Of a stretch of DNA of 64,000 nucleotides, positions 40,545 to 61,119 are shown one piece after another. Below the pieces are notes generated by a model that did no database searches, had not been told where the DNA came from, and was given only the letters and a program-made list of their open reading frames with translations. Source of the stretch: Firmicutes bacterium ASF500. Its GTDB lineage: Bacteria > Bacillota > Clostridia > Oscillospirales > Oscillospiraceae. Each line of letters opens with the position of its first letter. Positions within the stretch are counted from its first letter, which is position 1. The stretch spans positions 2,356,001 through 2,420,000 of the forward strand of contig CP097573.1 in the NCBI GenBank assembly GCA_000492175.2. The letters are read 5' to 3'. The position numbers and the translations under genes are program-made.

Positions 40545-40623
40545 TTCCCTCACCCCTTACTCCCTATTTTATCATCTCTACGTGAAAAAGTCTGCCAAAA
40601 GGCAGACTTTTTCGACAGGCTGA
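39032..40623 (-). mobile_element. IS1182-family insertion sequence
   Basis: The ends are 16-bp perfect inverted repeats TCAGCCTGTCGAAAAA at 39032-39047 and its complement at 40608-40623, giving a 1592-bp element. Each end also has a subterminal hairpin (39049-39078, CCTGTCTGG type; 40585-40612, AGTCTGCC type) that could block outside transcripts. The left end abuts a terminator hairpin and the right end abuts a 23-bp palindrome, in line with the preference of some IS1182 members for hairpins. No clear target duplication is visible. Confidence 0.88.
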
Positions 40624-40645
40624 TGCGTCTCACGGTGAGACGCAT
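40623..40645. repeat. Palindrome copy 1 (CACGGTG centre)
   Basis: Perfect 11+1+11 palindrome, ATGCGTCTCAC arms. It overlaps the last base of the IS1182 right end and lies downstream of the HTH gene at 40654. Confidence 0.9.
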
Positions 40646-40653
40646 TTCTTTGG

Positions 40654-40896
40654 CTATGACATAAAATTATCAGGCGGTTCTTTGAATTGAAAACTGGTAA
40701 TCGCGTCGAACAGTGCGATTATCGCTTGGTAATAGAGATCATCATCTACATAGTGGCGGATATTTCCGTATTTATCATCGTAACAGCATAAACACTGGCT
40801 CGCAATAAAGCCCTCAAAGTGTTGGAATACAAGCAGGACAGCTTCAGAGTCAAACTTTTTTGCCGCCCGGATGACAGAAAAAGGCACTCGCTTCAT
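40654..40896 (-). CDS. Helix-turn-helix protein of conjugative elements
   Basis: The 80-residue product (SVIRAAKKFDSEAVLLVFQHFEGFIASQ, then DDDLYYQAIIALFDAI) resembles the HTH_16/sigma-like partner proteins of Tn916-type and mobilizable elements. Its ATG overlaps the stop of the sigma-factor gene (ATGA). The pair probably regulates element genes, perhaps transfer. Confidence 0.7.
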   Translation of the reverse strand: MKRVPFSVIRAAKKFDSEAVLLVFQHFEGFIASQCLCCYDDKYGNIRHYVDDDLYYQAIIALFDAITSFQFKEPPDNFMS

Positions 40897-41318
40897 GAGG
40901 TGTTCTCTATCAATTCCCGCAACCGTTTAGTTGCGGCCCGCCGTCGCCGGGAAACAGTAGAAATACTCATAGATACCAATGGGGCAATTTTAGCGTCTTT
41001 CAGCCCCCTAAAATAGTAAAGCAGAATGATTTCCCGGTCTTTGGGCATTAAGTAGGACAATGCTTTGGACAGCTCCGGCTCATAAACAGGGATATTCATT
41101 TCTTGAACATAAAAGATTTGGCATGGCTCCTCCGGCTGTTCGACTTCGCCGCCCTTTGCTACTACGCCATAAAGCGCTGCATCTGTTAATTCGGAAAGGG
41201 ACTGCTCCATCAGCCCCCGCGCTGCTTTCTTCTGACGTTCTTTTTTTGCAGCGTTGCTGACAGCCTTTTTGCAATAGGATTCAAACAGCATTTCGTTAAA
41301 TTTTTCAAATCTTGACAT
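40893..41318 (-). CDS. Sigma-70-family sigma factor of a mobile element
   Basis: With ATG 41318 (GGAGAGG ten bases upstream) the product is 141 residues. The C-terminal region YLMPKDREIILLYYFRGLKDAKIAPLVSMSISTVSRRR is a clear sigma region 4. The N-terminal half lacks a conventional region 2, as is usual for element-borne sigma-like factors. Coupled to the HTH gene downstream. Confidence 0.8.
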   Translation of the reverse strand: MSRFEKFNEMLFESYCKKAVSNAAKKERQKKAARGLMEQSLSELTDAALYGVVAKGGEVEQPEEPCQIFYVQEMNIPVYEPELSKALSYLMPKDREIILLYYFRGLKDAKIAPLVSMSISTVSRRRRAATKRLRELIENTS

Positions 41319-41386
41319 TGAAAATCTGCCTCTCCATTTTTCAATATCCATATGCCCGGATTTTATCCAGTGGCACCCTTTGAGAA

Positions 41387-41409
41387 ATGCGTCTCACCGT
41401 GAGATACAT
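41387..41409. repeat. Palindrome copy 2 (CACCGTG centre)
   Basis: ATGCGTCTCAC arm pairs with GTGAGATACAT, two substitutions from perfect. Lies between the sigma factor start and the 3' end of the ABC permease gene. Confidence 0.88.
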
Positions 41410-41437
41410 TTATGCTGAGCAGACATTTTTCTGATTA

Positions 41438-42448
41438 TTAAGATGCTTGCTTTTTGCGTCGGGTGGAAATCAAAACATACAGTGCGAACCATGCGACACA
41501 GTGGATTGCGAGGGTACCAACATCTTTTACAGCCGTCCCAATGCTCCCGGCGGACAGGGCCATAATTCCATCAAAGGCCGGTTGGGACGGAACGATATTG
41601 CAAATGACCGCCAGCAGCCCACTTACCCCGATTAGAGCGCATACAATGGGTACTGCAATAAACACAAGCATGATGATCTTGATATAGACCACGCCGATCA
41701 TCAAGCCCTCGGAGAGCTTGCCGATAAACAGCCCAATCAGCGCCGCCACAAAGGACGACAGAACGATCAGTGCCAGCATCAGTCCGGAATTCTGCCAGGA
41801 CAGTTGAAAGCAAATACACGCCGTTATGATAGACGATAGACTTCCAAAGAGAAATCCCACCACGACTTTCTGCAAAATGTACTGGCTGGGCGTCATGGGC
41901 AAAATCTCGTTGATAAAAGCCACGCCGTCCTCTTTTTCGGAAATGATGTTCATGGCGTTGAACGTACAGCCCATGAACATAGCGACGATCAGCACAGCGG
42001 GAATAAAAATGCCTTGAAAGTTCTCCAAAATGTCGGGCCGCTCCAACACTTGGACTTCTGCCTGTTCAGCGTTTCCCCGCCTCTCATAGAGGGCCGGGAG
42101 GGTTGCCGCCGCCTGCCGAAAAATGTCCAGCTCGTCCCCACTAATCGCAGTTTTGAGGCTGTCCCCGTCTGCTCTTACGCCGATCACATTGGTAGACGGT
42201 TCCTTGATAGCAGCGGCCAGTTCTTCCTGTGTCCCATAAGCTGTCACCAGGCTGTACCGCTCCAGCCATGTGATTGTCTGTGGGGGCAGGTCATTTTCCA
42301 GTACGCCAAAGTGCAGTTCTCCCAGGCTGGACAGGTCAATGGAGCCCATAAAATTCAATGTCACGGCGACCAGGATGGGCAGCAAGAATGTCATCAGGCA
42401 GAATTTATCTCGCAGGACACTTTTCAGTTGATATTTTAAGCCTTTCAC
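41438..42448 (-). CDS. ABC-2 type transporter permease
   Basis: The 336-residue protein has one N-terminal membrane segment (about 17-36), a large outside domain, and five membrane segments from about residue 150, with ISEKEDGVAFINEILPMTPSQYI typical of ABC-2 exporter permeases. It follows a second permease and an ATPase on the same strand. Such three-gene sets beside a VanRS-like system often export antimicrobial peptides; here the two-component genes lie 13 kb away (see findings). Confidence 0.85.
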   Translation of the reverse strand: MKGLKYQLKSVLRDKFCLMTFLLPILVAVTLNFMGSIDLSSLGELHFGVLENDLPPQTITWLERYSLVTAYGTQEELAAAIKEPSTNVIGVRADGDSLKTAISGDELDIFRQAAATLPALYERRGNAEQAEVQVLERPDILENFQGIFIPAVLIVAMFMGCTFNAMNIISEKEDGVAFINEILPMTPSQYILQKVVVGFLFGSLSSIITACICFQLSWQNSGLMLALIVLSSFVAALIGLFIGKLSEGLMIGVVYIKIIMLVFIAVPIVCALIGVSGLLAVICNIVPSQPAFDGIMALSAGSIGTAVKDVGTLAIHCVAWFALYVLISTRRKKQAS

Positions 42449-42451
42449 GCC

Positions 42452-43444
42452 TCACCCCTCCTTTCCGATTTCCCGGTGAAATGCAAGCCGCACCACCAGG
42501 AACAGCAGCACAATTACACCGACAGCTCCGACATAATAGACAGGAGAAATACCTGTTCCAAAATAGGCGTTTTTCAGACCCATATAGACGTGGTAGAACG
42601 GATGATAGCCGATCCAGTCAAACTTGATCGACGTGTTGGCGGATAGAAAGACCGGCGTTGCGGCGAAAATGGCGATGACCAGATAGGCCAGTGTAAATTG
42701 CCGAAAATCTTTCAGCAGAAGGGCGCAGAGCAAACCCACCAGGGCCATCATCAGCGACAGGATGGCCGTTTGGAGCAGGACGGCAGGCAGTATCGCCGCT
42801 CCGTCCGCAATCCCCGTATTCAGCAGGGTAAGCAGTACCGCAAAAACTAAATCAGAGAGCAGGAACACCGCCAGCTTGGACAGGAGAAACAAGTCCTTCT
42901 GCAACGGGAGAATGGCGTGGACACGGATGACCCCCATGCCCTTTTCCTTGAACAGCACAGCGGCAATCCCCAAAAATCCTACAGCGGCCAGCTCAAAAAA
43001 CAGCAGTTCGCAGGTGATTTCTTTTCTCGCCTTTTGTTCTGGCGTATTCGTGCTGAGTACCTCCGGGGCGGGGCTAGTCGAAGGCTGCAGTAAAGATAGG
43101 GCATAGTCCGCCCGGTGGCAGTCAACGTGTTCCGCTCCCTTATAGAGTACCACTCGCACTTCTCCGGCGCTGGCGTCCAGCCCCACGCCGTTGGCGTCGG
43201 AGAGCAGAACGGCATCCATGTCCTCCATGGAGAAAACAGTCTGCACCAGGGGCGATTTTTCCGTCTGTGTCCCGGTGGGGTCGTACAGATACACATTATA
43301 GGGCGGCATCTGCATGAAGCGGATATAGCCCAGGTTCACATAGGCTGTATAAAGGACAAGAAACCCTATTGCCATCAAGAAAAATTTCCCCGATACCAGC
43401 ATCTGGCAATCCTTTTTGAACAGGGCGCAAAATCCTTTTCCCAT
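42452..43444 (-). CDS. ABC transporter permease
   Basis: ATG 43444 shares one base with the ATPase stop (TGATG), giving 330 residues. One N-terminal membrane segment, an outside domain of about 130 residues and five C-terminal segments mirror its neighbour, so the two likely form a heterodimeric permease. KEKGMGVIRVHAILPLQKDLFLLSK is the ABC-2 coupling region. Confidence 0.83.
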   Translation of the reverse strand: MGKGFCALFKKDCQMLVSGKFFLMAIGFLVLYTAYVNLGYIRFMQMPPYNVYLYDPTGTQTEKSPLVQTVFSMEDMDAVLLSDANGVGLDASAGEVRVVLYKGAEHVDCHRADYALSLLQPSTSPAPEVLSTNTPEQKARKEITCELLFFELAAVGFLGIAAVLFKEKGMGVIRVHAILPLQKDLFLLSKLAVFLLSDLVFAVLLTLLNTGIADGAAILPAVLLQTAILSLMMALVGLLCALLLKDFRQFTLAYLVIAIFAATPVFLSANTSIKFDWIGYHPFYHVYMGLKNAYFGTGISPVYYVGAVGVIVLLFLVVRLAFHREIGKEG

Positions 43445-44292
43445 CAGGACAGCCCCCTCCCCGTGTACTGGATGAACATATCCTCCAAGGTTGGCTCCTG
43501 GGAGTGGATGCTGATGATCTCGTCGTGGGCAAAGGGAATACCTGTTTCCAGTGACCGGGCCTCTATGGTTTTTGTTTCCCGCTGTCCTTGATACAGATAG
43601 TCGATCACGACACAGTGATTGCTGTTTTTCTCTTTCAGGCGCTTGGGCGTATCCAGGGCTACCAAATTTCCATTGGAGATAAAGGCCACCCGGTCGCACA
43701 GTAAATCGGCATCCACCATGTTATGGGTGGTGACAAAAACCGTCGTTCCCTTTTTGCGCTCCTGCTCAATGATCTTTCGGAACAGTACCGCACCGGAGGG
43801 GTCAAGACCGCTGGTGGGTTCGTCCAAAAACAGCAGCCGGGGGTTGCTTACCAGCGCCCGCGCCATGCTTACCCGCTGGCGCATCCCTTTGGAGTAGGAG
43901 GACACCGGCTTTTTCAAAAAGTCTGGCTTAAATTCCAGCGCATCCAGCAGTTCCCCCACATCCCGCCGCTGCTCCCTGGGATAGAACGAAGCAAAATAGT
44001 TCAGATTGTCTACGGCGCTCAGATTGGCATACAAGTAGGGAAGCTCAAACAGGACGCCGATCTTCTGAAAAAATTCCTGGTCGTGGGCGGCGGAAATGTC
44101 CTGCCCGAACAGGGAGACCTTGCCGCCGTGGCCCTTTAATATCCCGGTGAGTATCTTTTGTGTTGTGGACTTCCCGGAGCCATTCGGCCCCAGGAAGCCG
44201 AAAATCTCCCCGTCCTCCACGGTGAGGTTCAGGCCGTGGAGGGCCTGCTTGTCTTTGCCATAGGAGAACGTCAGGTTTTTAACCTCGATCAC
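43444..44292 (-). CDS. ABC transporter ATP-binding protein
   Basis: The 282-residue protein has Walker A GPNGSGKST, signature SYSKGMRQRVSMARAL, Walker B LLFLDEPTSGLDP and the switch His in FVTTHNM. The C-terminal 70 residues are an accessory domain as in drug/peptide exporter ATPases. It overlaps both neighbours, forming a compact operon. Confidence 0.95.
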   Translation of the reverse strand: MIEVKNLTFSYGKDKQALHGLNLTVEDGEIFGFLGPNGSGKSTTQKILTGILKGHGGKVSLFGQDISAAHDQEFFQKIGVLFELPYLYANLSAVDNLNYFASFYPREQRRDVGELLDALEFKPDFLKKPVSSYSKGMRQRVSMARALVSNPRLLFLDEPTSGLDPSGAVLFRKIIEQERKKGTTVFVTTHNMVDADLLCDRVAFISNGNLVALDTPKRLKEKNSNHCVVIDYLYQGQRETKTIEARSLETGIPFAHDEIISIHSQEPTLEDMFIQYTGRGLS

Positions 44293-44510
44293 TCGTCGTC
44301 ACCCCACTTTCCGCGCTGGCCCTTCTTCTCCTGCTGGCGCTTGCTCCACCACTTCATAAACTTGACCTTGAAAGGGATGGAGATAACCAGCACCGCCACG
44401 ATCACCAGCCACCAGTACCACGCATAGCGATACGGTTCTATGATACAAAAATTGTTGGGAAAAAAGCGGAGAAATGACGAAAACAGACAAGAATAAGAGG
44501 ACAGTGACAC
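44289..44510 (-). CDS. Small single-span membrane protein ahead of ABC operon
   Basis: The frame ends by an ATGA overlap with the ATPase gene. A membrane segment (YAWYWWLVIVAVLVISIPF) is followed by a Lys-rich tail. The start is uncertain: GTG 44510 lacks a ribosome site and there is no better codon in frame, so the N-terminus may have been altered when the neighbouring insertion took place. Confidence 0.5.
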   Translation of the reverse strand: MSLSSYSCLFSSFLRFFPNNFCIIEPYRYAWYWWLVIVAVLVISIPFKVKFMKWWSKRQQEKKGQRGKWGDDE

Positions 44511-45770: not shown

Positions 45771-45793
45771 ATACATCTCAATTTGAGACGTAT
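45771..45793. repeat. Palindrome copy 3 (CAATTTG centre)
   Basis: ATACATCTCAA / TTGAGACGTAT, followed by TTCGACA. First of the interior A/T-centred class. Confidence 0.9.
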
Positions 45794-45890: not shown

Positions 45891-45913
45891 ATGCGTCTCA
45901 ACTTGAGACACAT
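45891..45913. repeat. Palindrome copy 4 (CAACTTG centre)
   Basis: ATGCGTCTCAA / TTGAGACACAT, preceded by CGTCGAAAA. Only about 100 bases from copy 3. Confidence 0.9.
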
Positions 45914-46210: not shown

Positions 46211-46386
46211 ATCACTTTTTTGCCAGTAGAAAAAATTTTTTCAAAATATGTGCCAAAACTACCCGGTTGGGGAGTGGACAAAAAACGAGCGATTTTGGTA
46301 GAATATTATGTACTTATGCGAAAGTGAAAATTTACACTTATTTTACAAGAAAGGGGTTGCAATTTTCATGCGGATGTGCCACACTT

Positions 46387-46446
<60 letters not shown>

Positions 46447-46487
46447 GATAATTGCGCCCTTTTTTCCTGTAAAATTGAATTTCAATC

Positions 46488-46533
46488 TAAAAGGCCACCC
46501 GGCGAGCGTTTCTGCTGTCCGGGCGGCCTTTTT
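46488..46533 (+). terminator. Terminator upstream of MalT-like regulator
   Basis: AAAAGGCC-CCCGG / CCGGG-GGCCTTTTT with a 16-base loop. It stands between the AAGC tract and the regulator gene and could act as an attenuator. Confidence 0.8.
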
Positions 46534-46563
46534 GCGCTCAGTTGAGGAAAAGGAGGCTGACCC

Positions 46564-48933
46564 GTGGACCAAAACTATATCGCTCCGGCAAGCGCACTAA
46601 AGAAACTGAAAAAGGCCCGGAACCTGTCACAGACAGTTTACCTTTACGGGGCCACTGGCTATGGCAAGACGGAGCTGGTACGCCAATATCTGTCGGGCCG
46701 CAGATACACTTACCTCTCCTGTGAGGAACTGCCCTGGGAGGATGGGGCGCTGCCCCGGTTGGAACCGGGCAGGCAAAACCGCCGGGTGGTGGTGATTGAC
46801 GACCTGCACCGACTGAAAAGCGAAAAACTACGCCAAGAGATTTTGGCATTGGAGGAGCGGGAGGATATATGGCTGATCCTGGTCAGCCGAAGCCCTCTCC
46901 CGGCCTGGCTCATGCCCCGGCATATCAAGAGCGTTTTTGTTGTGATCTCCGAGAAAGACCTGCGGATGGGCCGCAGCGAGATCGCCGCCTATCTGGAGTC
47001 CCGCGGCATCGCCTATACGGAGGAGGATATGCGGCTTTTGGAAGTCACCGCCGAGGGCAACGCCTATATCCTCCACCATGTCGCCCTGCGTATGAAGGAG
47101 GGCTTATCCCCCGGCTCGGAACTCCACGCGGAAATATGGGACGCCTTTGCCGCTTATCTGGAGAATGTGGTGCTGGTGCGATGGGACAGCGACCTGTTGG
47201 AATTTTTGATGCAGGTCAGTGTGGTGGACGAGTTTACGGCGGGGCTGGCGGAGATGATCTCCGGCAATCTCCATGTCACCGCCCTGCTGGAACAGGCGGC
47301 AGAGGCTGGGAATTTTATTTTCCAGGAGGACGGCACATATCGTTTACGCCCGGTGTTGATCGATGCTCTGCGGAACCGGACATTAAAGGTATATGGGACG
47401 GAGCGGGTCAAAGACCTCAAATATAACGCCGCCCTTTATTATGAAATGCACGATGAAGTCGTTCCCGCGCTAAGGCTGTTCGAGGTGTGCGGCAAGACCG
47501 AGCGAATCAAAAACCTGCTCATCCGCAACGCCCGGATGAATGTGGGCATCGGCCATTACTACGAACTGCGGCACTACTATTTCAATCTGGACGAACAGGA
47601 GATTGCGGACAGCCCGGTATTGATGGCGGGCATGAGTATGCTGTATTCCCTGTTGATGGACGGCGAAAAAAGCGAGTATTGGTACGAAAAGCTGAAAGCC
47701 TACACCGCCAATGCCAGAGGGGGTGTCCGGCGGGAGGCCCAGAGCCGTCTGACCTATCTGGATATTGCCCTGCCTCACCGGGGAAGCCGGGACGTGCTGG
47801 CGGTGATGAAGAACATTCCCGCCCTGCTGCTGGACAAGGGAAACTGTCTCCCGGAGCTTTCTGTCACCAGCAACCTCCCCAGCACCATGAACGGCGGAAA
47901 AGACTTCTGCCATTGGAGTCCCGACGATACCATGCTGGCGAAAACTGTTGGCCCATTGGTGGAACGTATATTGGGCCGCTATGGTAAGGGGTTTGTCAAG
48001 GCTGCGCTGGGCGAGAGCCGCTACGAAAAGGGCGGGGACAATTACGAGGTAATGTCCCTGCTGACCCGCGCCCAGGTGGAGGCAGGGCAGGGCGGGACGA
48101 TGGAGATCGCCTTTGCCGCCGTAGGCGTCCGGGTACGGCTGGCCCTGCTGCAAGGGGACAGTCCGGCGGCGCGGGAGCTGCTGGCATCCTTTGAACAGTC
48201 TGTGCGGGAAAACAGGGCCGTCCAGCTATTGCCCAACATCCAGGCGCTCCGCTGCCGGTTGGCCTTGTATGAGGGCGATATGGATATAGTGGAACGCTGG
48301 ATGAAAACCGCCCCGGACGAGGATCGGGAGTTTTGCGTGTTGGAGCGTTACCGCTACCTGACCAAAGTACGTTGTTATCTGGCGAACGGAGAGTACACAA
48401 AAGCCCAGGCCCTTTTGGAAAAGCTGCGCTACTATGCCGAGCAGACGGGCAGGCCCTATGTCCGCATGGAAACCGGGCTGTTGTCCGCCATCACCAAGGA
48501 GCGGGTTGGCGGGCCATGGCAGGAGGAACTGGCCATCGTTCTGAAAGAAGTGGAGCGTTACCGCTTTCTGCGCCTGATTACCGAGGAGGGAGCGGCGGTA
48601 TGGCCCCTGTTCCAACGGGAGAAAAAGGCGTTGCAGGAAGCTGGGACGTTGAATAAGGACTGGCTGCGCCGCCTGCTGGCCGAGGCCGAGGAAGAGGCCC
48701 GGCGCTATCCCCTCTACCTGAAAAAGCGGGCGGCTGTGGCGGCGGATTTCAAAGGCGTCGCCCTGACCATCCTCCGTTTGCAGGCCGACGGCCTATCTGT
48801 TAATCGGATCGCTCAAAGGCTGGATTTGAAGCCGGACAATGTGAAATATCACATCAAGGAGAATTATCGAAAATTGAATGTTGACAACAAAACGGACGCG
48901 CTGCTGGCGGCGCGAAGCCTGGGCCTGCTGTAA
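46564..48933 (+). CDS. MalT/LuxR-type ATP-dependent transcription regulator
   Basis: GTG 46564 after AAAGGAGG opens a 789-residue STAND-type regulator: Walker A GATGYGKT (29-36), Walker B VVVIDD (about 75), a helical TPR-like middle, and a C-terminal LuxR HTH (LRLQADGLSVNRIAQRLDLKPDNVKYHI). Such proteins oligomerise on an inducer and ATP to activate nearby operons. The SLH adhesin starts 183 bases downstream in the same direction, with palindrome copy 5 between them; it is the likely target (inference). Confidence 0.88.
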   Translation: MDQNYIAPASALKKLKKARNLSQTVYLYGATGYGKTELVRQYLSGRRYTYLSCEELPWEDGALPRLEPGRQNRRVVVIDDLHRLKSEKLRQEILALEEREDIWLILVSRSPLPAWLMPRHIKSVFVVISEKDLRMGRSEIAAYLESRGIAYTEEDMRLLEVTAEGNAYILHHVALRMKEGLSPGSELHAEIWDAFAAYLENVVLVRWDSDLLEFLMQVSVVDEFTAGLAEMISGNLHVTALLEQAAEAGNFIFQEDGTYRLRPVLIDALRNRTLKVYGTERVKDLKYNAALYYEMHDEVVPALRLFEVCGKTERIKNLLIRNARMNVGIGHYYELRHYYFNLDEQEIADSPVLMAGMSMLYSLLMDGEKSEYWYEKLKAYTANARGGVRREAQSRLTYLDIALPHRGSRDVLAVMKNIPALLLDKGNCLPELSVTSNLPSTMNGGKDFCHWSPDDTMLAKTVGPLVERILGRYGKGFVKAALGESRYEKGGDNYEVMSLLTRAQVEAGQGGTMEIAFAAVGVRVRLALLQGDSPAARELLASFEQSVRENRAVQLLPNIQALRCRLALYEGDMDIVERWMKTAPDEDREFCVLERYRYLTKVRCYLANGEYTKAQALLEKLRYYAEQTGRPYVRMETGLLSAITKERVGGPWQEELAIVLKEVERYRFLRLITEEGAAVWPLFQREKKALQEAGTLNKDWLRRLLAEAEEEARRYPLYLKKRAAVAADFKGVALTILRLQADGLSVNRIAQRLDLKPDNVKYHIKENYRKLNVDNKTDALLAARSLGLL

Positions 48934-48941: not shown

Positions 48942-48964
48942 ATGCGTCTCAACTTGAGACACAT
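48942..48964. repeat. Palindrome copy 5 (CAACTTG centre)
   Basis: ATGCGTCTCAA / TTGAGACACAT, eight bases after the regulator stop codon, followed by TTCGACAGG. Confidence 0.92.
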
Positions 48965-52289: not shown

Positions 52290-52312
52290 ATGTGTCTCAA
52301 ATTGAGACGCAT
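52290..52312. repeat. Palindrome copy 6 (CAAATTG centre)
   Basis: ATGTGTCTCAA / TTGAGACGCAT, preceded by CCTGTCGAA, i.e. opposite orientation to copy 5. Confidence 0.92.
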
Positions 52313-52930: not shown

Positions 52931-52953
52931 ATACATCTCAAATTGAGACGTAT
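52931..52953. repeat. Palindrome copy 7 (CAAATTG centre)
   Basis: ATACATCTCAA / TTGAGACGTAT, followed by TTCGACA. Last copy of the interior class. Confidence 0.92.
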
Positions 52954-53209: not shown

Positions 53210-54889
53210 ATGGCAGAGCAAAACATTCAAGCTATCAGCGATATGGGACAGAACGCCCAAAAACGCATCGTCTGTCTATATCGGGTGTCTACCATAGGAC
53301 AGGTTGACAAAGATGATATTCCCATGCAGAAGCAGTCTTGCCGGGGATTTTGCAGGCAGCACCCCGGCTGGGAGATTGTCAAGGAATTTTCTGAAAAAGG
53401 CGTTTCCGGGTTTAAGGTCTCCGCCAGGGACAGGGACGCGATTCAAGAGATACAGAAGATGGCCCTGCAAGGCGAATTTGATATTTTGCTGGTGTTTATG
53501 TTCGACCGGCTGGGCCGCAAGGACGATGAAACGCCCTTTGTGGTGGAATGGTTTGTCAAGCAGAATATTGAAGTATGGAGCGCCATGGAGGGCCAGCAGA
53601 GGTTTGACAATCACGTGGATAAGCTGCTGAATTACATCCGCTATTGGCAGGCTTCTGGAGAGAGCATTAAAACTTCCTTGCGCGTCAAGACCCGGCTGGA
53701 ACAGCTGACTCAGGAGGGGCTTTACTCCGGCGGGCGCACACCGTTTGGCTACCGGCTGGAGAAAACAGGCCGGATGAACAAGAAAAATCAAGATGTGCGG
53801 GATCTTGTTGTAGAGCCGGAGGATGCGGAAATCGTCAAGCTGATTTTTCAGAAATATGTGTATGAGGGCTGTGGGGCGCTCCGTATCTGCCGCTATCTGG
53901 CAGAGCAGAACATCCGCAGGAGAGACGGCAAAATGATTTCTGTCGGCATCATCAACCGGGCCATTCAAAACCCTATCTATATTGGCGTTTTGCAAAGAGG
54001 CGCCAGCAAATCAGAAGTCTTGCCCGCCTTGAAAATCATTGATGAAAATGTATTTGCCAGGGCACAGGAGATCATCAGCGCAAGGACCGTCCAGCACAGG
54101 GAAGTTCCGCTTACCACCAGAGGGAAATCCCTTTTAGTGGGGAATGTCTATTGCGGCTGCTGTGGAGCGCGGCTGGTGCTGACGACCTCCGGGCGAAAAT
54201 ATCGCAGGAAAGACGGGACAGTGGTTACAGGCAGTTATTCCAGCTATAAATGCTGCAACAGGACGCTGGCCCCCGGAAAGTGTGACGGACAGACTTCTTT
54301 CAGTGTTGAGAAGCTGGATAACCTTGTGGAGCAGATCGTCCGCATCCAGCTTGAGCAAATCCAAAAGGCTCCGCCACAGGCGCTGCTTGAGAAACAGCGG
54401 AGCCGGAAAATCGACCTTGCCAAAGTGAAGGTGAAGCGTCTGGAGGATGAATACCGGCAGAAGCAGAGGGCCTATCAGGATTTGCGGGCCGAGACGCTGA
54501 AGGTAATCCAGGGTAACAGCCATTTCAGCGCCGGTCTGCTGAACAGTTTGATTGACGAGACAGCCGCCCAGCTTAAGGAGCTGGAGAGCCAGGTGCAGGC
54601 CGCAGAGAAGGAGCTGCGGGACATTGTATCTGGCGCTGAACAGGTTGGACAGGAATACGCGCAGCTGGTGAATTGGGCCGGGTTATATGACAACTGCACC
54701 TTTGAATCCAGAAAAATGATTGTGGCGCAGTTCGTAAAGGCCGTCCACATCAAGAGAGGGTATGAGGTGGATATTGAGTTTAATGTGTCCTTCGAGGAAT
54801 TTCAGGCGCTTTATCTGGAGCCGGAAGCGGAGGAAAGCAAGCGGAAACGGAGGGGCCGGGAAATCCTTGCCCTCGTGGAGAACGCATAA
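53210..54889 (+). CDS. Large serine recombinase
   Basis: The 559-residue protein has an N-terminal resolvase domain with catalytic S27 (LYRVSTIGQ), FMFDRLGRKDDETP, a recombinase domain (GGRTPFGYRL, PEDAEIVKLIF), a zinc ribbon (CGCCGARL ... CCNRTLAPGKC) and a coiled coil near 400-480. Such enzymes integrate or excise Firmicute elements without a host factor. A weak GAGGG precedes ATG 53210. It sits inside the palindrome region, not at an edge, so it may move only the inner part. Confidence 0.92.
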   Translation: MAEQNIQAISDMGQNAQKRIVCLYRVSTIGQVDKDDIPMQKQSCRGFCRQHPGWEIVKEFSEKGVSGFKVSARDRDAIQEIQKMALQGEFDILLVFMFDRLGRKDDETPFVVEWFVKQNIEVWSAMEGQQRFDNHVDKLLNYIRYWQASGESIKTSLRVKTRLEQLTQEGLYSGGRTPFGYRLEKTGRMNKKNQDVRDLVVEPEDAEIVKLIFQKYVYEGCGALRICRYLAEQNIRRRDGKMISVGIINRAIQNPIYIGVLQRGASKSEVLPALKIIDENVFARAQEIISARTVQHREVPLTTRGKSLLVGNVYCGCCGARLVLTTSGRKYRRKDGTVVTGSYSSYKCCNRTLAPGKCDGQTSFSVEKLDNLVEQIVRIQLEQIQKAPPQALLEKQRSRKIDLAKVKVKRLEDEYRQKQRAYQDLRAETLKVIQGNSHFSAGLLNSLIDETAAQLKELESQVQAAEKELRDIVSGAEQVGQEYAQLVNWAGLYDNCTFESRKMIVAQFVKAVHIKRGYEVDIEFNVSFEEFQALYLEPEAEESKRKRRGREILALVENA

Positions 54890-54936: not shown

Positions 54937-55940
54937 TTTATCTATGTGGTTATCCCTTTAACTCAGCCAAGCAGAAGCACCAATAGCTAAGACCAGGCGC
55001 TCCAGGAGGCGGGGGCCAAAGTCACGGCGGCTAAAGCGGAAGCAATATTCGTCAAGGTAGGCTTGGAGGTGCTTTTTAGGCAGGCCATGGTAAGTACCCA
55101 GGATGAACGCCTTGGCGTTACTGATTACGATGTGCAGCCAATGGAGCAGGCCCGAATGGGGGGCGTAGGGTTTGTGCTCATGGGCATAGCCCTCCAGAGC
55201 CGGGATATAACTCCCGTAACCGTCACTGTGGATCGTACTGCCCTGGACAAACGCAGCTTGGGCAAATTTTTTGACAGAGGTCCGCTTGATATTCTGCGTG
55301 ACCCGCATCTTGGTATAGAGAGGATTTCCACGCTCATCCAAAGACACAGCCACAAAAACCTTCGCCTTTTCCGTACCCCGGCCCCGTTTTTTCCCAACAG
55401 TTGGCCCGCCAAAGTAGGTGTCGTCAAATTCAATGCTCCCATTGAGCTGATGGATTTTGTCCCGCTGACCCATAGCGGTACGGATACGCATGAGCATATA
55501 CCATGCGGTTTTATAAGTCGTTCCCAGCACCGACATCAGCGCAACGGCTGAGATGCCCCGCTTATCCTGGCTGACAAAGTAGAATGCAAAAAACCACTGC
55601 GTCAGCGGCATATGGGTCCTATGGAGCACCGTTCCCGCTGTCACTGAGTTCTGGTGGTGGCACTCAGCACATTGATACCGGCCGTTGGATAGCAGGCAAG
55701 CGTGGTGACAGCCGCATTTAGGGCAGACAAACCCGACCGGCCACCGCAGATTTGCCAGGTACTCCCGGCATTTTGCCTCGTTGGAAAACTCTTTCATGAA
55801 AGTTCCCAGAGGATACCGCTTACTCTTTGCCATGACCCTTTCCCTCCTTTTTGGGTTCATGGCCTGATTATATTCTCCGGCATATCCCATAATCCGGCCT
55901 TTTCCTCTGGCTGATTAAAAGGGATAACCACATTTATCTA
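54937..55940 (-). mobile_element. IS1595-family insertion with 8-bp target duplication
   Basis: Terminal inverted repeats of 25 bp with 23 matches (start TGTGGTTATCCCTTT) lie at 54945-54969 and 55908-55932, giving a 988-bp element. Both sides carry the identical octamer TTTATCTA (54937-54944 and 55933-55940), the 8-bp duplication known for IS1595. The intact ends and duplication indicate a recent insertion. Confidence 0.95.
54958..55833 (-). CDS. IS1595-family transposase
   Basis: ATG 55833 (AAAGGAGGGAAAGGGTC upstream) gives 291 residues: an N-terminal zinc ribbon (CPKCGCHHAC, CAECHH) and the ISXO2-like DDE domain (GSIEFDDTYFGG, HSDGYGSY, SNAKAFILGTYHGL). The stop codon lies within the left inverted repeat. 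Apparently intact. Confidence 0.93.
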   Translation of the reverse strand: MAKSKRYPLGTFMKEFSNEAKCREYLANLRWPVGFVCPKCGCHHACLLSNGRYQCAECHHQNSVTAGTVLHRTHMPLTQWFFAFYFVSQDKRGISAVALMSVLGTTYKTAWYMLMRIRTAMGQRDKIHQLNGSIEFDDTYFGGPTVGKKRGRGTEKAKVFVAVSLDERGNPLYTKMRVTQNIKRTSVKKFAQAAFVQGSTIHSDGYGSYIPALEGYAHEHKPYAPHSGLLHWLHIVISNAKAFILGTYHGLPKKHLQAYLDEYCFRFSRRDFGPRLLERLVLAIGASAWLS

Positions 55941-56057: not shown

Positions 56058-56067
56058 GGTATGCAGA

Positions 56068-56179: not shown

Positions 56180-57814
56180 TCACATCGTATCAGGTCTCCC
56201 ACATAGCGCTGTCAAAGGCAAGAATGGGCCAGAGACCTTCTTTTCACAATAGATAACATGGGTTTTGCAGCCAAGATAACGGTAAATTTCCTTTGCCTGT
56301 AATGACAACGCATAGTCACAGGTGACAAAATAATCACATTTTGACGCATAGCAGAGATGGTCAACGTCATAAAATCCGCTTCTAATTGTCCGATAAAACT
56401 TGCGATCATAGGTGGGGTAAAGTGCTTCATGTGTAAACTGAGTGCGCTTCTCAATTTTATTTTTGTGGTAACCAAGTGCGTTCATGAGCATGTAAAGAAG
56501 GCGAACCGCTTCCCGAATTTCAGAAAAAGTCCTTTCCTTTTTTCCATAGTCCTTAAACTCCTCCAGCAGAATCTGAGAACCACAAACCCCACAGAAAATC
56601 TGATGGAGAGCTTTGTTATCAATCGTTTCATTTTGGGGATCGAATAGCTCTATCGATGTCAAATCAGAAATTGCTTTTTTATGTTTATCTGCCTCTTTTT
56701 TATCCCATCCAAACATTTTACATGTCTGTTCCTCCAAAGTCTCAAATCTGGCGCATTCGGACTCCTCAGCGTACCCGTTCAAATCTTGAAGTTTTTTTGC
56801 GCGAGCAAAGCAGATGTCTACAGGTTCTGTGACAATTTTGAGGAGACCATTCTGAACAGGGAGAACTTCATGGTCACTACAGATTTTTGAAACACTTTCT
56901 CGTCGTTTGCTCTCATACGCAGAATTGCCCATCCTGCATACTTCCTCCATATGAGTGGGACCATAGACAAACTGAATTTTGCTCATTCCTACATAAGTAT
57001 CCAGTTGTGTACGGAAAACCTCATTGTCCTCATATAATTGATAAACACCAAAATCCAGATACGCAACCGTTTTCCCTTCCAATTCACATAGCGGAATATC
57101 CTGAACCTGAAAATCTTTGGAGGTCACTTTCAGTTCGGTGTACAGGATACTGTCAGTAGCTCGTACCCGATTCCAGAAGCTCAGATTGATATGTAGTTCC
57201 TCACGGTCTTTTGTCTTCAGATATTCTTTTAATGCTTGGGTACTATGCATCAGTTCCAGCCAGTTCACACCGTTTGAACACGTTTCCCAACACTCGCAAA
57301 GACCGAATGCCTTCAGATAATAGTCTGTGACTATTGCATCCAGTTCCAGTTTTTGCGCTTTCTCCATATCCTCGCTATGCATATTTTTTGCAACCAACTC
57401 CAAATCAGAAGAAAGAGTATAGGGCAGAACGGCGCAAATATCACATTTTAGATTAATCTCCTCAAGCCCTTTTTCCATCAAAATAGCCGCATATGTATTA
57501 TACATTTTCCGATAGTAGTCAAAGTGTTCCGGGGAGGGACATTTCTGGTTTATGTACTCCGATTTTGGGCGTTCCGGGTCCGGACATTCCGAAAGCATGT
57601 GTATCTCATCTAGTAAATGTAACAAGGCATAGTAGTACTTCATATGTAGAAGGTCAGCCCGTTGTTCATTTTCACCCTGTGTTTTGCTTTTTTCATGCTC
57701 CCGCTGCCATAAGTACATACTAGCATAATCTGGCAGATCCTTGCAAATCTTACAGACCCAGTTAATTTTGTTTTTTGTGACTTCACAAGCAGGTGAACAT
57801 CTGTTATTGTCCAT
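56180..57814 (-). CDS. Cys-rich protein with PIN-like putative nuclease domain
   Basis: With ATG 57814 (GGGAG eight bases upstream) the product is 544 residues; an upstream ATG at 57829 has no ribosome site. The N-terminal half contains CxxC pairs at C21/C24 and C124/C127 and a C173-C175-C179 group, suggesting zinc sites. From residue 248 the pattern TVAYLDFGVYQLYED (D254), then THMEEV (E290/E291) and C-terminal YDVDHLCYASKCDYFVTCD (D485, D494, D500) follows the acidic arrangement of PIN nucleases, with a long helical insert. No family name is known to me. It lies on the minus strand next to a two-component system, as cargo of the inner or outer element; a defence or RNase role is inference. 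Confidence 0.55.
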   Translation of the reverse strand: MDNNRCSPACEVTKNKINWVCKICKDLPDYASMYLWQREHEKSKTQGENEQRADLLHMKYYYALLHLLDEIHMLSECPDPERPKSEYINQKCPSPEHFDYYRKMYNTYAAILMEKGLEEINLKCDICAVLPYTLSSDLELVAKNMHSEDMEKAQKLELDAIVTDYYLKAFGLCECWETCSNGVNWLELMHSTQALKEYLKTKDREELHINLSFWNRVRATDSILYTELKVTSKDFQVQDIPLCELEGKTVAYLDFGVYQLYEDNEVFRTQLDTYVGMSKIQFVYGPTHMEEVCRMGNSAYESKRRESVSKICSDHEVLPVQNGLLKIVTEPVDICFARAKKLQDLNGYAEESECARFETLEEQTCKMFGWDKKEADKHKKAISDLTSIELFDPQNETIDNKALHQIFCGVCGSQILLEEFKDYGKKERTFSEIREAVRLLYMLMNALGYHKNKIEKRTQFTHEALYPTYDRKFYRTIRSGFYDVDHLCYASKCDYFVTCDYALSLQAKEIYRYLGCKTHVIYCEKKVSGPFLPLTALCGRPDTM

Positions 57815-57834
57815 ATTTTGCACTCCCATGTCTA

Positions 57835-58917
57835 TCAAATTGTTTTTATTTGCAATATAGGAATAGAAAAACAGAACCGCACTCCATCTTCCAAATTCTC
57901 TGCTCCGTAGGACAACTTCTGCATGGAAAGAACTTGCGCCACAATAGACAGCCCCAGCCCGGAACCGCTGTATTCCGCTCCGCTGTCCCGATAAAATTTT
58001 ATCCATATTTTAGGCAGGTCACTTTCTGGAATGGGCCGACCCTGATTGAAGATGGAGAAATGCAGCGCCCTATCATCCACTGTCAGTTCCAGCCGCAGAA
58101 CGCCGCCGGGATACACATTTTTCTTGGCGTTGACGATCAGGTTGTCCAAAACCTGCTCCATACGCCGCCGGTCTGTCCGCACAAAAACCTTTTGCTCCGG
58201 CAGCTCGTATTGCAGGTCAAAATTGGTGTCCGGGGCGTCGATCAGAAGCCGCCCGGCTACCGTTTCCACCAGCTCTACAAAGTCAAACCGGGTGACATTC
58301 AATCTTGCGGCCCCGCTTTCCAGCGCCGACAAGTCCAGCAGAGTTACAATCAGGTCATTCATGCGCTCCACTTCGGAGACAATCACTTGGGCGTATTTTT
58401 GCTTCTTGGTCTCGTCCGCTTCGTCCTGCAAGCCCTCGGCATAAGCCCGGATAATTCCCAGCGGGGTTTTCATCTCGTGGGATAGGCTGTCCACCAGCTC
58501 TTTGCGCTCGGCCAGCAAAAGCCGCTCCTTTTCCACGTCCTTTTCAAGCTGTGTGTTTGCGTCCTCCAACCGTGCAAGAGCCTGTTGCAGATTTTCGGCC
58601 ATCGTGTTCAGACTGGCGGACAGTTCCCCAAATTCATCGGTTGAAACAAGGTCGCAGGGGGCCGAAAAGTCCAGCCCTGCCATGCGCTTTGCGGAGGCGT
58701 TCAGCTTGGACATTGGTTTCGTGATAAAGCGGCTCATAAAAAAGTCGATGCCCAAGACCAGCAGTAGGACAAATCCAAGCCAGAGCAGAAAAGAGGCATC
58801 CTCGCTGATTGGCAGGCCGGTGGAGAGGACATAGGAAAAAATCAGTGCCAGTCCTGCCAGTTTTGACATCATTAAAATCTTTTTCCGAACAGTACGGAGC
58901 GAAAATGCTTCTTTCAT
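57835..58917 (-). CDS. VanS-like sensor histidine kinase
   Basis: The 360-residue protein has two membrane segments (about 18-34 and 43-60) with almost no outside loop, a HAMP domain, a HisKA box VDSLSHEMKTPLG and an HATPase domain (VLDNLIVNAKKN, GSGLGLSIVAQ). Such intramembrane-type sensors usually respond to cell-wall antibiotics together with an ABC transporter. Its ATG overlaps the response regulator stop by four bases. Confidence 0.92.
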   Translation of the reverse strand: MKEAFSLRTVRKKILMMSKLAGLALIFSYVLSTGLPISEDASFLLWLGFVLLLVLGIDFFMSRFITKPMSKLNASAKRMAGLDFSAPCDLVSTDEFGELSASLNTMAENLQQALARLEDANTQLEKDVEKERLLLAERKELVDSLSHEMKTPLGIIRAYAEGLQDEADETKKQKYAQVIVSEVERMNDLIVTLLDLSALESGAARLNVTRFDFVELVETVAGRLLIDAPDTNFDLQYELPEQKVFVRTDRRRMEQVLDNLIVNAKKNVYPGGVLRLELTVDDRALHFSIFNQGRPIPESDLPKIWIKFYRDSGAEYSGSGLGLSIVAQVLSMQKLSYGAENLEDGVRFCFSIPILQIKTI

Positions 58918-59582
58918 ACCGCCACCTCGAATTTATAGCCGGAGCGGATCAGCGTGACAATATGCCTGCCCTCGTCCCCCAGCTTTTGCCGCAGGGTCTT
59001 GATGTGGGTGTCCACGGTTCGGGTCGTTCCCTCGAAGTCATAGCCCCATACACGGTTTAGAAGCTGCTCCCGATTGAATATTTGCTCAGGGTTTGCCATC
59101 AGAAAGGCGAGTAGTTCATACTCCTTATGGGTCAAGGCGATCTCCTGGCCGTCCAGATAGACCTTGTGTGCGTTGGGGTGGAGCATGATTTTCCCGGCGG
59201 TGATCGCTCCGACAGAAGCGGGGGAGGAACGGCGCAGCAGGGCGTTCGCCTTTGCCAGCAACACCTTGGGGCTGAATGGCTTTGTCATATAGTCGTCCGC
59301 GCCGTAGTCGTAGCCCTTCAGCTTATCGTCCTCCGCACTCTTGGCGGTCAGCATGATAATGGGCATATCGCTCATTTCCCGCGCCATCTTACAGACGGAG
59401 AAACCGTCCAGATGGGGCATCATCACATCCAGGATCATCAAATCCATAGGATTATTTTTCAGCGTGACAAGGGCGTCTATGCCGTCGTCGGCGGTAAAAC
59501 AGGTATGTCCGCCTTTTCGCATATAGTCTGCAATGATGTCTTGCATGGCTTTTTCATCTTCAACAATCAAAATGTTTGACAT
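58914..59582 (-). CDS. VanR/OmpR-type response regulator
   Basis: The 222-residue protein has a receiver (VEDEKAMQ, LMILDVMMPHLDG with the phospho-acceptor Asp, LTAKS, KPFSP) and an OmpR winged helix (LTHKEYELLAFLM, TTRTVDTHIKTLRQKLG). Co-transcribed with the kinase from the promoter at 59629. The best target candidate is the ABC operon at 41.4-44.5 kb. Confidence 0.95.
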   Translation of the reverse strand: MSNILIVEDEKAMQDIIADYMRKGGHTCFTADDGIDALVTLKNNPMDLMILDVMMPHLDGFSVCKMAREMSDMPIIMLTAKSAEDDKLKGYDYGADDYMTKPFSPKVLLAKANALLRRSSPASVGAITAGKIMLHPNAHKVYLDGQEIALTHKEYELLAFLMANPEQIFNREQLLNRVWGYDFEGTTRTVDTHIKTLRQKLGDEGRHIVTLIRSGYKFEVAV

Positions 59583-59628
59583 AGTGCCTCCTAAATCGCT
59601 ATCATTCTATTTGCCTGATATGATTTTG

Positions 59629-59657
59629 ATTATATTTTGTATTAGACAAAAAGGCAA
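59629..59657 (-). promoter_or_regulatory. Sigma-A promoter of the two-component operon
   Basis: Minus-strand TTGCCT (59657-59652), 17-base spacer, TATAAT (59634-59629). Confidence 0.75.
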
Positions 59658-59717
59658 GAGAGCATATAGAAAGATTGGGTTGATATTACAAGAAAAAGCT
59701 GAGTTCTTGATAAAATA

Positions 59718-59740
59718 ATGCGTCTCACGGTGAGATGCAT
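59718..59740. repeat. Palindrome copy 8 (CACGGTG centre)
   Basis: ATGCGTCTCAC / GTGAGATGCAT, between the two-component promoter and the SWIM gene. Confidence 0.92.
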
Positions 59741-59811
59741 TTTGTCAAATTACTTGTTTTGGGTGCGGCCTTGTGGTAGTATTGATATACTAGCCATAAG
59801 GGGGACATGGA

Positions 59812-60243
59812 ATGAGCATCCGCACTTTGGCCAGCGGCGCATCCGCATGGCGGGGCTATGAATACTACAGGTCGAAAAAGGTGCTGTCCCACTCCCAAAC
59901 GGGCGGGGACGAGTACACGGGGCAGGTGGCCGGGAACGGCCTCGCCCCTTATCAGGTGAAAATCAATATTGCCCATCCCCGGCAGTCCAAATGCAACTGT
60001 CCTTACGCAGGCGGGCGGCGGGTGATCTGCAAGCACATGGTCGCCCTGTTCTTCGCCGCATTCCCGGAAGAAGCGGAGGACTACATAGAGGCAGTGGAGG
60101 AATATGAACGGGAGGAGGAGCAGCGCATGGAGGAACACTATGCGGCGCTGCGCTCCTATGTGAAAAGTCTGTCCAAAAAGGAACTGCAGGAAAAGTTATT
60201 TGAAGCCTTGGTTGAGTTGGAGGAACGGGGCCGCTATTATTAG
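59812..60243 (+). CDS. SWIM zinc-finger protein
   Basis: The 143-residue protein has a SWIM motif C61-x-C63 ... C73-x-H75 (CNCPYAGGRRVICKH) and a long acidic helical C-terminus. SWIM fingers bind DNA or proteins and occur in SWI2/SNF2 ATPases, transposases and small proteins of mobile elements. No ATPase partner is adjacent. Palindromes flank it on both sides (copies 8 and 9). Confidence 0.85.
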   Translation: MSIRTLASGASAWRGYEYYRSKKVLSHSQTGGDEYTGQVAGNGLAPYQVKINIAHPRQSKCNCPYAGGRRVICKHMVALFFAAFPEEAEDYIEAVEEYEREEEQRMEEHYAALRSYVKSLSKKELQEKLFEALVELEERGRYY

Positions 60244-60257
60244 CCGTTCAGCAGAAA

Positions 60258-60280
60258 ATACGTCTCACGGTGAGACGCAT
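60258..60280. repeat. Palindrome copy 9 (CACGGTG centre)
   Basis: ATACGTCTCAC / GTGAGACGCAT, 15 bases after the SWIM stop codon. Confidence 0.92.
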
Positions 60281-60560
60281 TTCTTCAAGCCGCTTTGGGC
60301 GCATACGCTCCCGCGTCTTCACCTACAATGACTATCGCACGTTCCGGGAAACGCTTACGCCTCCCGCAACAGCAAAAACCGGCGCAAGCCAGTTTTGGGG
60401 TATGCCCCCCTTAATTACCAAAAGCACCGGCGGCCTTTGGCTGTCAAGGCCCGCGCCGCCCCCAGGCGGCGCGGCTTGTCTTGGCCTTGACGGACAAAGG
60501 GCGGTGGTGTAAAATCCCCCGCGGAGGGGGCATACCCTGGGTTGCGCCACTTTATTCCTG
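60281..60560 (-). other. Nested inverted repeats downstream of mobC
   Basis: A 12-bp perfect pair GGGTATGCCCCC (60398-60409) / GGGGGCATACCC (60526-60537) encloses GTCAAGGCC/GGCCTTGAC arms (60440-60494) with an inner CCGCGCCGCC-type hairpin. The inner part matches the structure at 45547. A relaxase gene would be expected here after mobC but none is seen. Confidence 0.6.
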
Positions 60561-60869
60561 TCACAGTGTTTCCTTTACCAGTCTCCACGCCTGCCGGACT
60601 AACGCGGTGGCTTCAGCAATCTCCGCTTTGCCGATTCCCTTGGTGGTGTTGGCCCAATATGCGATCTGATTCACATTGTTGCCGATGGCCGATAGCTCCT
60701 GCAGTAGGGCGGCGTAGGTGTCGGGCGGCTTCGGCTGAATATCCACATCCATAATGCCGTGCCGGAGCAAGGCACTGGTGTTGAGGCCGGACAGGGCGCA
60801 TTGTTTCAGCAAATGCCCGTATTCGGCGTCACTCAGCCACAGGCCGATAAATTTTTCGCGTTTCCGCAT
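60561..60869 (-). CDS. mobC: MobC-type mobilisation protein
   Basis: The 102-residue protein has a ribbon-helix-helix-like N-terminus (FIGLWLSDAEYGHLLKQC) and the MobC signature LLQELSAIGNNVNQIAYWANT. MobC opens oriT DNA for the relaxase. The ATG 60869 follows GAAAGGAAAATC. The partner relaxase gene is absent, so transfer would depend on an enzyme supplied from elsewhere. Confidence 0.88.
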   Translation of the reverse strand: MRKREKFIGLWLSDAEYGHLLKQCALSGLNTSALLRHGIMDVDIQPKPPDTYAALLQELSAIGNNVNQIAYWANTTKGIGKAEIAEATALVRQAWRLVKETL

Positions 60870-60889
60870 AAGATTTTCCTTTCTCGCTA

Positions 60890-60912
60890 ATGCGTCTCAC
60901 GGTGAGACGCGT
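60890..60912. repeat. Palindrome copy 10 (CACGGTG centre)
   Basis: ATGCGTCTCAC / GTGAGACGCGT, between mobC and the candidate oriT. Confidence 0.92.
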
Positions 60913-60923
60913 TTTCGTTGATG

Positions 60924-61020
60924 GGGGTTCCAAGGGGGGCTTCCCTCCTGGCAAGCAGTCGTTTGTGTTTAACAAATGACATACTTGCTCGGACAGCACC
61001 GCCTTTCGGCGGCGCTGTCC
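60924..61020 (-). other. Candidate oriT 2 (outer element)
   Basis: Read on the minus strand: a 12-bp hairpin GGACAGCGCCGC-type (61020-60991), AGCAAGTA (60989-60982), a stem GTCATTTGT/ACAAACGAC, CTTG (60955-60952) and a C-run followed by TTGGAACCCC. It lies directly upstream of mobC, the usual place for oriT. It matches the site at 45384-45470 in order and spacing of blocks. Confidence 0.65.
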
Positions 61021-61096
61021 GCTGTGGGTGCTGCCGGGTAGCTGTTTCCCCTTTCTGGGAACTTTTTATCAGCATTTTATGTGCGAAAGAACGCTA

Positions 61097-61119
61097 ATTC
61101 GTCTCACCGTGAGATAAAT
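61097..61119. repeat. Palindrome copy 11 (CACCGTG centre)
   Basis: ATTCGTCTCAC / GTGAGATAAAT, the most diverged copy. Its right end touches the repA stop codon. Confidence 0.85.

Follow-up and report, generated by a model that had tools for sequence, protein, structure and literature searches.

Eleven 23-bp palindromes lie between the genes of an island in a 64,000-nucleotide stretch of the chromosome of Firmicutes bacterium ASF500 (hereafter the window). Comparison with related elements suggests that they are probably parS/O_B-like sites, at which a ParB-family DNA clamp made by full conjugative elements (ICEs) would recognise the DNA and load. Among the three readings offered in the preliminary description, operators of an element-wide regulator come close to this, since helix covariation and the sites at virB4 genes point to an element-encoded ParB-family protein; terminators and recombination seams fared badly.

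Two classes of palindrome in the window

The sequence was re-read, and all 11 coordinates in the preliminary description proved exact. We counted 21 arm matches in the window against 3.2 expected, and none of 100 shuffles scored as high. A looser scan of 78 kb holding the whole window returned the same 11 and no other, in agreement with the claim that the rest of the window lacks them. They had all been called 11+1+11 palindromes; near-perfect odd palindromes they are, but only the copy at 40623 is fully perfect (11/11 pairs), while eight sites pair at 10/11 positions and those at 41387 and 61097 at 9/11.

The palindromes fall into two kinds, which had been overlooked: class I (n=6), with the centre CSG (CGG/CCG), and class II (n=5), with the centre ANT (ATT/ACT/AAT) and a one-sided TTCGACA-like tag. 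Two class I sites, 40623..40645 (centre CGG) and 41387..41409 (centre CCG), enclose HTH_16 and sigma-70 region 4 genes (40654..41351, minus strand), which we take to be Tn916-type regulators. The class I site at 59718..59740 has a response regulator on one side and, on the other, the gene of a SWIM zinc-finger protein (59812..60243, plus strand), which is bordered at its other side by the class I site 60258..60280 in the gap to mobC. The mobC gene (60561..60869, minus strand) encodes a MobC/NikA-like relaxosome protein, and no relaxase gene follows it. Beyond the class I site 60890..60912 lies the non-coding gap between repA and mobC (60913..61096), presumed to be oriT because it adjoins mobC; over about 140-150 bp, this gap is 85-91% alike in sister elements. 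The last class I site, 61097..61119, abuts the stop codon of repA, the gene of a RepA_N/DUF6017 replication initiator (61119..62084, minus strand).

The class II sites are 45771..45793 (centre ATT, TTCGACA tag at the right), 45891..45913 (centre ACT, tag at the left with one mismatch and a 2-bp spacer), 48942..48964 (centre ACT, tag at the right), 52290..52312 (centre AAT, tag at the left) and 52931..52953 (centre AAT, tag at the right). The third begins 8 bp past the stop of a LuxR/MalT-type regulator gene (46564..48933, plus strand); in ICE B, a palindrome lies likewise 8 bp past the stop of the homologue, but it is of class I. We rejected the tag as a promoter, as 22 tags point to starts and 21 to stops, and a -10-like box was found in 3/43.

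The window sites lie between genes and often touch a stop codon, as had been claimed. The mechanical ORF list has one entry, of 166 residues, that includes the palindrome at 52290; a later start is likely for this ORF because its Pfam domain begins at residue 86 and AGGAG follows the palindrome. The window's island is without ParB, relaxase and type IV secretion genes, and seems to be a relative of full ICEs that carries the sites and does not make the clamp protein.

Distribution of the sites and covariation with ParB

In the 3.67-Mb genome, we found 47 exact cores, all within six clusters (control, 0), so that the palindrome is not scattered at random in the chromosome. It is also present in related mobile elements, and the viral contigs searched gave 0 matches. 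Across 34 element stretches, 6 of 223 sites lay fully within a called gene, compared with 77% of random blocks, the gene calls coming from a home-made caller that misses some genes; sites inside genes at a similar density were thus not found either. In three elements, however, a conserved ORF of 325 aa encloses one class I site. A single site class is carried by 30 of the 34 stretches.

A de novo search of ICEs with other ParBs showed other palindromes of the same build. An ICE of the source genome has 11 exact CTGGACAC-N-GTGTCCAG sites, and GGGACA-N3-TGTCCC has 8 exact sites (shuffled maxima 1-2 for both); another ICE of the source genome has 12 TTGGGACA-N3-TGTCCCAA-like sites. Sites of classes M2 and M3 are less strictly intergenic (4/14, 4/12 and 3/11 inside called genes), and in the source genome M3 sites are present outside their own ICE too. 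Different site classes occupy the same intergenic gaps in different ICE families, and a site of class I, II, M2 or M3 matching the ParB lies within 60 bp after 10 of 11 virB4 genes. ICE B has 20 merged sites for 22 gaps of at least 25 bp. The order of one functional unit per interval seen in the preliminary description is expected where sites are about as many as gaps. Compared with random gaps, a null that is faulty where sites outnumber gaps, the spacing varies less in G159 and in M2 ICEs; for class I, even spacing was not shown.

Intact ICEs with class I or class II sites encode a ParB-family protein. In full ICEs this protein has the N-terminal (CTPase) fold of ParB and a helix-turn-helix in its centre. 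Pfam placed ParB_N on two stretches of it, and the ParB of class I ICEs, like that of some class II ICEs, has two ParB_N domains and a long repeat linker. The core profile matched solved chains of Spo0J, Noc and ParB, with E from 6e-22 to 3e-18, and of KorB (1e-4), and the GxRR and NxxR motifs are conserved in the alignment.

We compared the recognition helix with the palindrome at 41 ParB loci. The results showed that motif I accompanies the KLNR helix in 7/7 loci (2/34 of the others reach 2 sites) and motif II the SRA[NS][IV]Q helix in 3/3 (1/38 of the others). At least 3 M2 sites were found with the NYK helix in 8/8 (1/33 of the others), and 8 M3 sites with the SGKTV helix in 1/1 (0/40 others reach 3), a single ICE standing behind the M3 class. 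Of the four off-pattern loci, three are accounted for by two ICEs sharing one contig. Beyond this first sample, an S. variabile record combines an NYK helix with 3 M2 sites, G507 an SRSNIQ helix with 5 class II sites, and G022_C14 a KLNR helix with 2 class I sites. One element, G299, has six class I sites and six ParB matches, among which five helices were read and none is KLNR; its nearest ParB lies 7.7 kb past the array and carries a different helix. The E. faecalis and Pusillibacter records hold ParB relatives without a palindrome array.

Covariation alone does not single out ParB, because core ICE genes all have a partly common history. The families found on the sense strand in all four site classes are relaxase, ParB, VirD4, VirB4, TrbL-like and PrgI (blastp 1e-6), and among these ParB is the sole likely binder of the palindrome.

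Alternative explanations

The same binding may serve another end. The sites could be centromeres (parS) whose main task, like that of their counterparts on parABS plasmids, is to segregate the element while it is excised and replicating; we consider this possible but rather unlikely. The protein does belong to the ParB family, and repA adjoins parB with a palindrome in between. The IncC plasmid R55 is reported to have 14 parS-like repeats at scattered positions; among those studied, EMSA showed ParB binding to three, and SGI1, an island, has two (PMC10954446). Against this, the ICE stretches with arrays showed no ParA-like ORF (KGGxGK motif with QKGG), and none of 10 ParB neighbours scanned with Pfam was ParA. 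Eleven ParA-like ORFs adjoin ParBs that lack an array of the four motifs, except in G165_C112, where the five class I sites sit in another part of the contig than the ParB of the ParA-like ORF. Twenty sites, moreover, exceed the needs of a centromere. A ParA from another part of the genome could still serve them in trans.

It is improbable that the sites bind another element-encoded protein (RepA, MobC, SWIM or an HTH regulator), with ParB only sharing the history of the ICE. The site class does track the ICE lineage as well, repA and mobC adjoin sites in class I and II elements, and the nearest neighbours of mobC match the site class in 18/20. However, RepA is found in three of the four site classes and SWIM, HTH_3 and YpsA in fewer, whereas ParB is found in all four; class I and M3 also have the same inner CAC/GTG as the chromosomal parS consensus, which is present at 2154532.

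Recombination seams that allow modules to be exchanged have little to recommend them. As expected for seams, some modules change neighbours at palindromes: the gene context of the SWIM gene with its two palindromes differs between elements B and F and the window, and oriT, palindrome and mobC are contiguous in A and D and interrupted in B and E, the blocks ending at a palindrome. Such block ends are weak evidence, since alignments end at a conserved intergenic site anyway. The expected excess of breaks was missing: adjacency was conserved at 206/713 palindrome gaps, compared with 92/450 other gaps of at least 30 bp, and no recombinase is linked to the sites. With the palindrome in one element only, adjacency was conserved in 45/642 cases. 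The 206/713 and 92/450 counts also led us to reject site-specific recombination modules of the pdif type, in which gene order is preferentially broken at the sites.

Bidirectional transcription terminators or other RNA hairpins are slightly less credible still. The repeat is able to fold, T-runs occur at some sites, and at some (1307291, 1300047) the palindrome reaches into the flanks. Yet at least 6 T in 8 were found at only 45/446 strand flanks, 1/9 window sites between 42 and 61.9 kb was called terminator-like, and neither the 128 distinct class I sites nor the 45 distinct class II sites showed more flank pairing than shuffles. Rfam gave 0 matches in the window, and the letters of the site vary with the ParB class. 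The arm mismatches at one position (A.C 18/202, G.T 19/202) do not decide the RNA-hairpin question. Mobile palindromic repeats of the REP/REPIN type, spread by a transposase, would give many near-identical intergenic copies, but are hardly conceivable for sites that are confined to element clusters and bear different letters in the same gaps of different families.

A proposed clamp model and its relation to known systems

Under the ParB clamp reading, each ICE lineage would have a ParB with a helix-turn-helix that fits the odd palindrome of that lineage (general form arm-CA(C/A)-N-(G/T)TG-arm), as the covariation supports. Along the whole element, the sites occupy intergenic gaps. By analogy with ParB, KorB and BisD, ParB would load at the sites, bind CTP, close and slide along the element. 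The clamp coverage, in the least certain step, might then switch element genes and/or organise the excised circle. For the island's class I sites, two ICEs of this chromosome, at 1.28 and 3.38 Mb, would provide the clamp in trans. The island's class II sites seem to be orphans; among six helices read in the source genome (seven matches better than 5e-17, one weak), none was that of a class II ParB.

The O_B consensus likewise has an odd centre. KorB-O_B of plasmid RK2 is described as a ParB-family CTP clamp with sites near and far from promoters, short palindromes being spread over a conjugative element as here (PMC11790492). Our elements differ in being Firmicutes ICEs with other site letters and sites mostly between genes within operons; the similarity to KorB is low (E 1e-4), and no KorA partner was identified in these ICEs. 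If there is a partner in the KorA-KorB manner, the one-sided TTCGACA tag beside class II palindromes could be its site. In the IncC plasmid parABS system, dispersed palindromes are bound by the element's ParB, and SGI1, a mobilizable island that lacks a full Par system, bears the sites of its helper (PMC10954446); the island in the window seems to do the same. In contrast to IncC/SGI1, ParA was not seen beside ParB, and the presumed helper, which the island would hijack, is an ICE located in the chromosome that holds the island. BisD/bisS of Pseudomonas ICEclc is also a ParB-like clamp that comes from an ICE and slides along it, but BisD is a coactivator with BisC (PMC13393423, PMC12704722). 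Chromosomal ParB-parS and Noc-NBS share the palindrome with inner CAC/GTG, and a few helix residues (173, 179, 184, 201) decide their specificity (PMC7383237); here there is an extra base at the palindrome centre, there are many sites per element, and the outer letters are class-specific. Among the open-access PMC papers listed in our searches, none was seen to describe ParB sites dispersed over ICEs of Firmicutes.

We tentatively suggest, at somewhat less than even confidence, that this clamp code keeps apart ICE families living in one chromosome: each would have its own orphan ParB and palindrome in the same gaps of a common gene order, covering the whole element, not single promoters, and ParB-less satellites would join by carrying the palindrome. 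If the reading is true, the elements would provide at least four naturally occurring ParB specificities, each with its sites, in which to study how the protein comes to recognise a new target; one chromosome holds three of them (class I, M2 and M3). ParB without ParA would then work on integrated elements, so that segregation could not be its sole task. In gut Clostridia, a simple DNA word would mark the conjugative system to which an island belongs, and satellites could be assigned to their helpers from sequence alone.

Distribution of the two palindrome classes

The eleven coordinates given in the preliminary description were exact on re-examination, and a looser scan of 78 kb including the window returned the same 11 sites, confirming that the palindrome is missing from the rest of the window. 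The claim that all are 11+1+11 palindromes was too strict: pairing is full at one site, while eight pair at 10 positions and two at 9. Arm matches in the window numbered 21, against 3.2 expected. By their centres, the window sites fall into class I (CGG/CCG, six sites) and class II (ATT/ACT/AAT, five sites, at 45771, 45891, 48942, 52290 and 52931, all bearing a TTCGACA-like tag). In 42 of 43 distinct tagged class II sites the tag lies on one side only, 0-3 bp away, and the choice of side shows no relation to the direction of the genes (22 versus 21); the tag is possibly the site of a partner protein. A KQAS-coding short tandem repeat is located at 46376-46600, and a large serine recombinase gene (53210-54889) adjoins a class II palindrome and is followed by an IS1595-type transposase gene (54958-55890).

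In the 3.67-Mb ASF500 genome, the pattern matched 54 places and the reversed control none; the exact core occurred at 47 places, every one within six clusters at 1.006-1.014, 1.277-1.322, 2.051-2.053, 2.397-2.417 (the window), 3.384-3.408 and 3.525-3.531 Mb. Of 150 genomes sampled from the family, 15 contained a match, and the 15-base core of the palindrome was present in 16 of 394 genomes of the order. Scanning genome contigs gave at least 100 stretches, with 80 loci among the matches listed, mostly in Oscillospiraceae records; none was found in viral contigs. An Elusimicrobiales MAG, remote from the usual hosts, also has the palindrome on one contig, which is likely a binning error. In all, 223 sites were collected from 34 element stretches: 55 of class II and 168 assigned to class I, two of the latter being GAA-centred, intragenic and doubtful. 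A single class was present in 30 of these stretches.

Carrier elements and site placement

Cluster B (1.277-1.322 Mb, 45 kb) is a conjugative element (ICE) whose Pfam content comprises RepA_N, ParB_N, ArdC, MobC, a MobA-type relaxase, sortase, pilin, VirD4, TrbC, PrgI, a VirB4-like ATPase, NlpC/P60 and SWIM proteins, and its core families are common to class I and class II elements. The window island and a further palindrome cluster, A, both carry repA and mobC; profile searches, run on ORFs of 120 aa or more, found no ParB, relaxase, VirD4 or VirB4 in either, and both look like satellites or decayed elements. The order repA-palindrome-gap-palindrome-mobC-palindrome is recurrent, being shared by the window island, ASF500 1005994-1014140 and other genomes, such as G155, G156 and G167; no relaxase was found in these mini-elements, which are candidates for mobilisation by an ICE relaxase. 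Class I palindromes flank a SWIM zinc-finger gene on both sides at 59718-60280 of the window and at 1309634-1310203 and 3529492-3530060 of the ASF500 genome, in differing gene contexts, as if the gene had moved with them as a unit; genomes G152 and G167 have the same arrangement. A palindrome lies 8 bp past the stop of the window's LuxR-type gene, where it is of class II, and at the same distance from the stop of the ICE B homologue, where it is of class I; the two genes share 85% DNA identity.

Just 6 of the 223 sites lie fully inside called genes, compared to 77% of random blocks; 79 of 180 stop-facing sides are no more than 30 bp from the stop, and every site keeps a distance of at least 15 bp from called starts. 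ICE B offers 22 gaps of 25 bp or more and contains 20 merged sites, two of which fall inside called genes. A conserved 325-aa ORF contains one class I site.

ParB proteins as putative binders

All full ICEs of class I or II that we examined encode a ParB-family helix-turn-helix protein beside repA and a palindrome. A profile of nine ParB cores, to which adjacent ICEs of a different type contributed two, matched solved Spo0J, Noc and ParB chains, and KorB weakly. The class I ParB (ASF500 1277247-1279613) has two ParB_N stretches connected by a long linker, in which a 13-residue unit is repeated almost unchanged; copies of the protein (788, 710, 801 and 849 aa) differ in how many units they have. 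The half-site consensus of chromosomal parS is GTTTCAC, and an exact parS copy is located at 2154532 of the ASF500 genome; the class I half-site GTCTCAC resembles it, with one extra base at the centre. The ParB beside the palindrome and the parS-like half-site together predicted that other ParBs would accompany other palindromes of the same build.

A de novo search for repeated odd palindromes bore out this prediction. The ICE at 0.08-0.12 Mb contained CTGGACAC-N-GTGTCCAG (M3) 11 times, with exact arms at 6-8 letters, and exact GGGACA-N3-TGTCCC (M2) occurred 8 times in the ICE at 1.456-1.478 Mb and 7 times in a neighbouring ICE of genome G151; shuffled maxima were 1-2, and none of three control stretches exceeded 2. 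Allowing two mismatches, 13 M3 and 12 M2 sites were found. Across the ASF500 genome, 27 of 31 M2-like places fell within four clusters (control, 2); of 25 M3 places, the 19 listed comprised nine in the ICE, four at the contig start and six elsewhere, singly or paired. Placement of M2 and M3 was looser (4/14, 4/12 and 3/11 inside called genes). A site followed virB4 within 60 bp in 10 of the 11 virB4 genes listed (exception, G154), and its class (I, II, M2 or M3) agreed with the ParB of the same element; a site also preceded the TrbL-like gene in classes I, II and M2. Clustering by blastp (1e-6), which also grouped antisense shadow ORFs, gave six sense-strand families in all four classes: relaxase, ParB, VirD4, VirB4, TrbL-like and PrgI. 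Among them, ParB alone is known to bind short palindromes in duplex DNA at many places.

We then read the recognition helix at 41 ParB loci and counted motifs within about 25 kb. KLNR helices were accompanied by at least two class I sites in 7/7 loci (clusters B and E, G151, G154, G157, G165_C160 and G166), SRA[NS][IV]Q helices by class II sites in 3/3, NYK helices by at least three M2 sites in 8/8, and the SGKTV helix by M3 in 1/1. Non-matching loci reached the same counts in 2/34 (class I), 1/38 (class II), 1/33 (M2) and 0/40 (M3) cases; three of these four are neighbouring ICEs that share a contig, and the fourth is contig G165_C112. Two weaker candidates have the same build: CGGGCCAA-N-TTGGCCCG, found 4 and 3 times with VKQVQRYIK helices, and CTGGYCAC-N-GTGACCAG, found 4 and 2 times with SVKTV helices. 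Three further loci agreed: S. variabile OY725853 (NYKKV, three M2 sites), G507 (SRSNIQ, five class II sites) and G022_C14 (KLNR, two class I sites). Two further NYK loci on short stretches were mixed, with one and zero M2 sites. Against the code, no array was found at the E. faecalis and Pusillibacter ParB loci, and G299, a 99% complete genome, has six class I sites at C3:65635-84453 and no KLNR among the five helices read of its six ParB matches; this array may be a satellite, a decayed ICE or an exception. In Caulobacter ParB, residue 173 is a known specificity position (PMC7383237). Aligned by eye, the equivalent position would be V/T, R, Y and G in classes I, II, M2 and M3. Overall, the palindromes are likely to be binding sites of the ICE ParB proteins.

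Possible function and known parallels

Inspection of the ParB surroundings in the array ICEs revealed no ParA-like ORF; 11 such ORFs lay in stretches whose ParBs lack arrays, except G165_C112. A ParA may act in trans, yet its absence beside these ParBs favours a KorB- or BisD-like role over pure segregation. According to published reports, KorB loads at O_B, is closed into a clamp by CTP and, by sliding, reaches promoters as far as 1.5 kb away (PMC11790492), BisD is a promoter coactivator that slides along ICEclc (PMC13393423), and parS-like repeats are scattered at 14 places in IncC R55, with two in the SGI1 island (PMC10954446). SGI1, with sites of the IncC R55 set, is the nearest parallel to a window-type island that has sites and lacks a ParB. 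The purpose of the palindrome arrays would more likely be element-wide control or coverage than segregation alone.
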